Origin: Riemerella anatipestifer
GTDB lineage: Bacteria; Bacteroidota; Bacteroidia; Flavobacteriales; Weeksellaceae
Length of the DNA stretch: 64,000 nucleotides
NCBI RefSeq assembly: GCF_009663465.1
Contig: NZ_QXHU01000005.1
Coordinates: forward strand, 206,377 to 270,376
Reading direction: 5' to 3'
The position numbers were made by a program, and so were the translations under genes. Shown here piece after piece: positions 52,348-53,400 of this stretch (position 1 is the first letter of the stretch; every line of letters starts with the position of its first letter). The notes under the pieces were generated by a model. That model had not been told where the DNA came from. It saw only the letters and a list, made by a program, of their open reading frames with translations, and ran no database searches.

Positions 52348-52378
52348 TTTGGAGAATAGAAAAAATATTATATATTTG
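52348..52378 (+). promoter_or_regulatory. pyr operon promoter
   Basis: TTTG (52348-52351) and TATATTTG (52371-52378) are spaced by 19 bases, a full -33/-7 pair. Transcription should start near 52384-52385, at the first base of the leader-peptide ATG. Confidence 0.75.
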
Positions 52379-52384
52379 CGTTTA

Positions 52385-52459
52385 ATGTGTCACTTAGAGA
52401 ACATATTTAATTTAAAAACCGAAGGGCAAGGTCCTTCACAAAGATATTGTTATTATTAG
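52385..52459 (+). CDS. Putative pyr leader peptide, 24 residues
   Basis: An uninterrupted frame runs from an ATG at or within a base of the predicted transcription start to a TAG at 52457-52459. The stop abuts the 5' arm of the terminator hairpin at 52460. The peptide starts MCHLENIFNL and ends Tyr-Cys-Tyr-Tyr. The last codons are T-rich (TATTGTTATTATTAG), as in the UTP-sensitive pause region of E. coli pyrBI. A ribosome near the stop would cover the hairpin's first arm. Expression is inferred from position; no homology supports it. Confidence 0.5.
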   Translation: MCHLENIFNLKTEGQGPSQRYCYY

Positions 52460-52487
52460 AACGAAGCCATTGGCTTCGTTTTTTTTT
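52460..52487 (+). terminator. Attenuator hairpin in the pyrB leader
   Basis: AACGAAGCCA (52460-52469) pairs with TGGCTTCGTT (52471-52480) and runs into nine T. It lies between the promoter and the pyrB ATG at 52504, so it can only act as premature termination of the pyr transcript. Confidence 0.8.
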
Positions 52488-52503
52488 ATAATTTTTTTAA
52501 GTT

Positions 52504-53400
52504 ATGCTTACAATTTCAGATTTATCCACAGAGAAAATTAGATCTCTTTTAGAAGAGGCGCAAGGGTTTGCCAATGGTAGAATAGTTAAATGCCAACAAG
52601 AAGTTTATGTGTCTAATCTTTTCTTTGAAAACAGTACGAGAACCAAAACAAGTTTTGATGTAGCCGAAAGGAAATTAGGACTCAATGTGGTGCCTTTTGA
52701 TGTCTCTACCAGTTCGGTAAACAAAGGCGAAACGCTTTACGATACGGTAAAAACTTTGGAAAGTATTGGAGTTGATTTAGTGGTCATTCGCCATAGTCAA
52801 GACTTTTATTTTAGGGAGTTGGAGACTATTAACATTCCTATAATTAACGGAGGAGATGGCACAGGTAACCACCCTTCGCAATCTTTGTTGGATTTGATGA
52901 CGATTTATCAAGAATTTAAAAAGTTCGAAGGATTAAAAGTGGGGATTGTAGGCGATGTTAAGCACAGTAGAGTGGCTAATTCTAATGCGGAGGCACTAAG
53001 ACGACTTGGAGCTAAAGTCTATTTTTCTGGGCCGGAAGATTGGTTTGATGAAGCCGAATTTATCAATGGGACTTATCTGCCTATAGATACGCTTGTAAAA
53101 GAGGTTGATGTGGTGATGCTTCTTCGCATTCAGCACGAAAGACACGGAGAGAAAATGAAATTGTCTTTAGACAAATACCATCAAAAATACGGTCTTACCA
53201 AAGAAAGAGCCGCTCAAATGAAACCAACTACTATCATTATGCATCCGGCTCCTATCAATAGAGGGGTGGAAATAGAGACGGATTTGGTGGAAAGCCCTCA
53301 GTCCAGAATATTTAAGCAAATGGAAAACGGCGTTTACGCCCGAATGGCGATCCTAAAACAGGCTTTGGAAGACAAAGGAGTGATGTTTAAAACAATATAA
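52504..53400 (+). CDS. pyrB: Aspartate carbamoyltransferase catalytic subunit
   Basis: A 298-residue enzyme that joins carbamoyl phosphate and aspartate in the first committed step of pyrimidine synthesis. The carbamoyl-phosphate loop [11 protein letters not shown] is at residues 41-51, with [27 protein letters not shown] and [11 protein letters not shown] further on. No regulatory subunit gene pyrI follows, so control is probably at the leader. It is the first gene of the pyr/car group; carA follows by about 55 bases. Confidence 0.96.

Follow-up and report, generated by a model that had tools for sequence, protein, structure and literature searches.

How is the synthesis of pyrimidines regulated in Riemerella anatipestifer, a member of the Weeksellaceae? 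The question is raised by the DNA immediately upstream of pyrB in a stretch of 64 kb from this bacterium, which we call, in its whole length, the window (Table 1). From the sequence only, it had been noticed that pyrB is preceded by a -33/-7 promoter, an ATG, a 24-codon frame with a T-rich end, and a hairpin followed by nine T, an arrangement recalling the attenuator of the Escherichia coli pyrBI operon. Base-by-base examination gave the same picture, with a spacer of 19 nt between the -33 TTTG and the -7 box, the 24-codon peptide MCHLENIFNLKTEGQGPSQRYCYY, and a terminator hairpin, AACGAAGCC-ATT-GGCTTCGTT, that merges into its T-run; the distance from the T-run to the pyrB ATG, given as 17 bases, has to be corrected to 16 nt. 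The segment 52386-52503 (118 nt) folds at -29.3 kcal/mol (z = -5.2), which was equalled by none of 200 shuffles. The combination of a box, an ATG 4-8 nt further on and a frame open to a terminator occurs once on the two strands of the window, in a scan that comprised 24 terminator-like sites; it occurred in none of 20 one-strand shuffles, a weak control, with about two terminators per shuffle.

Table 1. Features discussed in the text. Positions are those of the window unless another locus is named.
Feature	Position	Strand	Basis
-33 promoter element TTTG	52348-52351	+	read from sequence
-7 promoter box TATATTTG, Bacteroidota consensus TAnnTTTG	52371-52378	+	sequence, family comparison, excerpts of PMC9723704
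predicted transcription start zone, 0-2 nt 5′ of ATG	52383-52385	+	deduced from the -12 to -5 box position
leader frame, 24 codons (ATG at 52385-52387) plus TAG (52457-52459), probably leaderless	52385-52459	+	open frame in 56/57 distinct family leaders
upstream (probable pause/synchronisation) hairpin GAAGGGC-AAG-GTCCTTC	52421-52437	+	folding, family covariation
T-rich tract, proposed UTP-dependent slowing site	52445-52457	+	sequence, family T content
intrinsic terminator (attenuator), hairpin (52460-52480) and nine T (52479-52487)	52460-52487	+	sequence; 99.5% of cells paired, 45 family leaders
pyrB, aspartate carbamoyltransferase catalytic subunit	52504-53400	+	NCBIfam NF002032, E 3.8e-110
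carA, carbamoyl-phosphate synthase small subunit	53458-54534	+	NCBIfam TIGR01368
carB	56494-59676	+	NCBIfam TIGR01369; three other ORFs between carA and carB
leader of the second pyrB paralog, genome G016	L162, 3028-3142	minus	covariance model, 103 bits
second leader of genome G002, before carB	L164, 2683-2784	minus	covariance model, 49 bits

Comparison with relatives was based on 75 pyrB loci of the Weeksellaceae, 57 from genomes of the family (the one of the window included) and 18 from other records, two of which are metagenome bins; these loci are part of what the 263 PyrB-positive genomes, out of 296 for the family, could provide, and L058, a partial pyrB match devoid of upstream DNA, was left out of the counts. 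Six species of the genome collection belong to the genus of the window. Between ATG and hairpin, the leaders of Cloacibacterium L090, Halpernia L092 and Kaistella L080 agree letter for letter with those of the family loci L041, L051 and L012, respectively, in keeping with the assignment of the family to the Weeksellaceae, where Cloacibacterium and a Chryseobacterium group are also placed. The succession of TAnnTTTG box, ATG, short frame, T-rich stretch, terminator and pyrB was found in 72 of the 75 loci, the exceptions being three loci (L055-L057) of a single genus, the PyrB of which is more distant. The gap between box and ATG is of 5-7 nt in all 72 leaders, and of exactly 6 nt in 64 of them, in a search that allowed 0-9 nt. 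Among the 57 distinct leaders, which are related sequences rather than 57 independent events and cover 25 genus codes of the genome search, the frame starting at the ATG is open up to 12 nt or less from the terminator in 56 cases; the corresponding numbers are 3 and 13 for the other two frames, and 200 rounds of shuffling gave 15 on average and never more than 24. This result strongly implies that the leader is translated. The frame has 18-26 codons where its stop is at or before the terminator hairpin. The abutment of stop and hairpin, which had been noted in the sequence-only reading, is real in the window but is not always seen in the family: the stop is within -3 to +6 nt of the first G-C pair of the terminator in 45 of the 57 distinct leaders; in 10 others the frame enters or crosses the hairpin, and the last two have their stop 9 or 16 nt before it. 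Around the stop codon of the leader, TAAG in close relatives corresponds to TAG in L017, the stop being retained; L018 has lost its stop, and its frame continues across the terminator. A set of 13 close leaders displayed 3 synonymous and 15 non-synonymous changes, for 34 and 128 possible single changes, respectively. The reading frame is thus kept and the peptide is without constraint among these leaders. The comparison proposed in the sequence-only reading has in this way turned out largely as anticipated there: conservation extends to the position of the ATG, to the openness of the frame, to the junction of stop and hairpin and to the T-richness of the end, but not, in the 13 close leaders, to the peptide.

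If the leader is translated, the signal that it conveys could be something other than UTP, i.e. the charging of tRNATyr, tRNAIle or tRNAPhe, or the general rate of translation. The trp and his attenuators, which use the coupling of ribosome and polymerase, share with the family leaders a leader frame, an early hairpin and a terminator. The last five leader codons are mostly for Tyr, Ile and Phe, and excerpts of PMC9723704 present leader-peptide attenuation of amino-acid operons as likely in Flavobacterium psychrophilum. However, in contrast to the trp and his leaders, there is no conserved run of regulatory codons: no stretch of a single residue is kept (peptides end in DIYCY, NIFYI, RYCYY, KIFIF and others), and the terminal residues range over Tyr, Ile, Phe, Cys, Leu, Asn and others. 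The conserved property is T-richness. Besides, none of Tyr, Ile and Phe is a product of the operon, and a ribosome stalled 5′ of the hairpin would leave the terminator free to form unless an antiterminator existed. Inspection by eye of the family leaders revealed no conserved antiterminator pairing; in the window, pairing would be possible between CCTTC of the upstream hairpin and GAAG of the terminator, a match not seen, again by eye, in most relatives. Altogether, coupled attenuation responding to such a signal appears unlikely to us.

The T-richness itself can be quantified. The 18 nt located 5′ of the terminator contain on average 9.95 T (55%) and 5.84 A in the 57 leaders, as compared to 6.04 T and 8.51 A for 45 other terminators of the same sequences, a comparison whose P-value ignores the relatedness of the leaders. 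In the window the tract is TATTGTTATTATT, rich in T without any TTT, a feature shared only with two near-identical tracts of the same group. These data bear on another possibility, namely that the leader is translated and that the terminator merely imposes a constant set point on pyrB, with no response to pyrimidines. Promoter-proximal terminators can act as set points, but conservation of the T-rich tract and of the frame would then be unnecessary; moreover, the element is found in front of each of the two pyrB paralogs of G016 and before one carB. A constant set point is, in our opinion, distinctly unlikely.

An element that the sequence-only reading did not mention is the hairpin lying upstream of the T-rich tract, which was found in all but one of the 57 distinct leaders. 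Taken singly, these hairpins are weak: in the median case 6% of shuffles score as well, and 27 out of 57 are at 5% or less. The comparison of 45 leaders is more telling, for the hairpin covaries: all five pairs show changes on both sides and 84.7% of the cells pair; breaks in the outermost pair affect 15 of 44 leaders. The structure comprising both hairpins scores 0.395, against 0.163 for shuffled sequences and at most 0.098 when slid; as the structure guided the alignment, the first of these values is a flattering one.

Two conserved hairpins 5′ of a pyrimidine gene might also point to an RNA switch, bound by a protein (PyrR-like) or by a ligand (riboswitch), with an incidental frame. PyrR controls pyrimidine genes in Bacillus, and L097, one of the two Bacillota loci that we tested against Rfam, does contain the PyrR-binding RNA (RF00515). 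The hairpins of the family leaders, however, change their letters freely while pairing is retained, and an RNA switch would leave the conservation of the frame unexplained. Furthermore, the PyrR protein (NF003549) was detected in none of the 148 family genomes searched, and neither the window nor the leaders of L001 and L162 gave a match that attains the gathering score of an Rfam family. In line with the sequence-only reading, no Rfam PyrR site was matched in the 64 kb of the window; RF00515 was also without match in L001 and L162, a test of limited power since PyrR-bearing L059 and L065 and the Bacillota locus L096 are not matched either. Sub-threshold Rfam matches in the leader (e.g. Phe_leader, 14.6 bits, E 9.4) were set aside as lying below gathering scores. 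We therefore see an RNA switch as very improbable.

In the Bacteroidota, which largely do without Shine-Dalgarno sites, how would a ribosome gain access to the leader frame? The promoter provides an indication. TTTG is found 22-25 nt 5′ of the -7 box in 30 of the 57 distinct leaders, with a peak at 23 as in the window, and position -1 is an A in 55 of them. In F. psychrophilum, according to excerpts of PMC9723704, the promoter box is situated at -12 to -5 with the consensus TAnnTTTG, and 5.5% of the mRNAs are leaderless. Combined with the gap between box and ATG, this position of the box predicts a start about 2 nt 5′ of the ATG, hence a 5′ untranslated region of 0-2 nt, and this spacing suggests that the frame is probably loaded by leaderless initiation. 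Two other arrangements were considered and set aside: start-site switching, which is the mode of control of pyrC and codBA, because the start region is without a T-run, and a separate pyrB promoter 3′ of the terminator. The gap between T-run and pyrB is of 10-36 nt in 56 of the 57 distinct leaders (118 nt in the other one) and thus leaves little room for a second promoter. Since the terminator stands between the only promoter that was seen and pyrB, attenuation of some kind is implied.

The attenuator of E. coli pyrBI responds to UTP through translation-coupled read-through. Its leader gene, pyrL, has the same order of elements as the family leaders: a leader frame, an upstream hairpin, a T-rich tract, an intrinsic terminator and pyrB. 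Some distances are alike as well: in E. coli K-12 there are 32 nt from ATG to hairpin (34-37 nt in 44 of the 56 family leaders with an upstream hairpin) and 10 nt from hairpin to TTTTTCTT (in 34 of the 56, a TTT is found 7-13 nt after the hairpin). The latter spacing is not universal, because in 13 of the 56 leaders a TTT directly follows the stem, a second and longer T stretch coming later. In contrast, the distance from hairpin to terminator is 40 nt in pyrL and only 18-29 nt in 55 of the 56 family leaders (44 nt in one), and the T-rich tract adjoins the terminator in the family whereas 30 nt separate the start of TTTTTCTT from it in E. coli. The frames differ too: that of pyrL has 44 codons and runs through the terminator, ending 45 nt past its first base, whereas the shorter family frames mostly end at the base of the hairpin. 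Excerpts of PMC4824070 indicate that the E. coli pyrBI terminator is inside a leader gene of 135 bp and that an E. coli terminator is repressed almost completely when it lies several bp behind a stop codon. A frame that goes through the terminator characterizes the E. coli case and not the mechanism as such. Other differences from pyrBI are the probable leaderless start, the presence of carA after pyrB and the lack of pyrI, which had been inferred for the window and extends to the other genomes searched (PyrI in 0 of 21, the window's own included). No sequence likeness between pyrL and the family leaders was noticed, and we regard the element as probably convergent rather than as a homologue of pyrL. 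It would probably constitute, as judged from its sequence, a variant of the known pyrBI-like attenuation in which leaderless loading would be new relative to the E. coli case.

From the parts and their order we infer a course of events that includes the exact start, the leaderless loading, the pausing, the termination and the nature of the signal. Transcription would start 0-2 nt 5′ of the leader ATG, and a ribosome would load as soon as the 5′ end of the RNA emerges. RNA polymerase would then be slowed at the upstream hairpin with the U-rich tract behind it. Under UTP shortage, the polymerase would linger there, so that the ribosome catches up; standing on the stop codon next to the terminator hairpin, or having read into the latter, the ribosome would block the terminator and allow transcription of pyrB and carA. 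When UTP is plentiful, the polymerase would outrun the ribosome, the terminator would form and transcription would end. The role of the hairpin should not be over-read, since a pause at E. coli pyrL depended in vitro on neither a hairpin nor NusA, according to excerpts of PMC9291695. That UTP would be the signal is suggested by the T-rich tract, by the genes that follow and by the resemblance to pyrL. Family conservation, a peptide free of constraint in close leaders and the absence of PyrR from the family genomes searched support the earlier interpretation, and we consider it likely that pyrB is preceded by a UTP-sensitive, translation-coupled transcription attenuator of the pyrBI type.

How widespread is this element? 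At E ≤ 0.1, a covariance model of the leader had matches in 43 of the 60 family genomes searched. There were 38 strong matches (E ≤ 2.8e-7) in 37 genomes; the 36 that were compared with independent placements of pyrB, all but those of G054 and G058, are located directly before this gene. Three weaker matches (G029, G021 and G019) are also at pyrB. Most of the weak matches were rejected: in the stretches viewed (13 of 14), all except L162 and L164 were without the box-ATG-frame combination and had the look of ordinary terminators, an example being found on contig 18 of G049 (52 bits). In the phylum, the model matched 3 of 198 genomes, all three from Weeksellaceae, with filters so strict that weak matches are lost. 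Nothing convincing was obtained with 20 PyrR-type loci, with L055-L057 or with nine Bacillota loci, the best match having 23 bits and an E of 0.54. L055 and L057 possess another terminator (CATCTTA..TAAGATG) 5′ of pyrB, which may be part of a different attenuator.

Neither this apparent confinement to a single family, as far as the searches reached, nor the difference from relatives that possess PyrR had a place in the sequence-only reading. At E ≤ 1e-20, a search of 148 genomes of the order detected PyrR in 101, and in 93 of those the match exceeds the curated cut-off; among the 47 genomes without it, the 20 that were listed are all Weeksellaceae. A pyrR gene lies just 5′ of pyrB in the 20 loci examined from other Flavobacteriales, which were taken from 27 PyrB matches outside the family at E ≤ 1e-60, versus none of the 75 family loci. 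PyrR attenuation, known from Bacillota, controls the same genes, but in the family genomes and leaders searched neither the protein nor its RNA target was found and the ribosome is the proposed controller; the leader seems to stand in place of PyrR. The family PyrB is Bacillota-like: it is 52-66% identical to Bacillota PyrB among the best 80 matches listed, versus 41-46% to the 27 PyrB of its own order. In a tree of 74 rows, quickly built, sampled from best matches and with a very long E. coli branch, the 24 leader-bearing PyrB come together as a clade (SH-aLRT 100) that is nested in an otherwise Bacillota group (SH-aLRT 93), the 20 PyrB of other Flavobacteriales form a separate clade (SH-aLRT 98), and those of L055-L057 are placed elsewhere in the Bacillota-like group. 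As to the donor of a Bacillota-type pyrB and the direction of transfer, these data are suggestive only. One may imagine that PyrR was lost in an ancestor within the Weeksellaceae, which acquired a pyrB of the Bacillus type and developed de novo a UTP sensor of the pyrBI kind with leaderless loading of the ribosome, a scenario to which we attribute equal chances of being right and wrong. No PyrB match was obtained in 33 of the 296 family genomes; these belong to several genera and may be pyrimidine auxotrophs or have another type of PyrB.

We found no description of this element in the open-licence full-text literature; swaps between sensing systems before the same gene are discussed in excerpts of PMC2965389 and offer a general precedent. 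Our results suggest that the pyrBI solution to UTP sensing has evolved more than once, with a leader of some 120 nt seemingly taking the place of a regulatory protein. If the ancestry outlined above is true, a ribosome that starts as the RNA end emerges would let the race between polymerase and ribosome dispense with a Shine-Dalgarno sequence. The leader would also offer a compact natural read-out for transcription-translation coupling and leaderless initiation in Bacteroidota: should ribosome-polymerase coupling be absent from this phylum, the element should not work, which makes the question of coupling testable.

A last aspect concerns carB. In G002, a species of the window's genus, a second leader stands before carB, 1.6 kb 3′ of carA, with a box, 6 nt, an ATG and a frame open through the hairpin. 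In the window, reading of the sequence between carA and carB and the covariance model both revealed no such leader in front of carB. Among 30 carB loci, seven (the window and six others) have no carA in the upstream stretch examined and no such leader; in L181, a 29.7-bit match to the model is more than 1 kb away from carB. Control of carB by this element is thus a single case, that of G002, and no rule. Displaced carB genes would have been expected to carry the leader and mostly do not, which very slightly lowered our confidence in the attenuator. The three ORFs separating carA and carB in the window occupy positions 54551-56474; one of them matches the YiaA membrane-protein family, and the first alone was found in G002.
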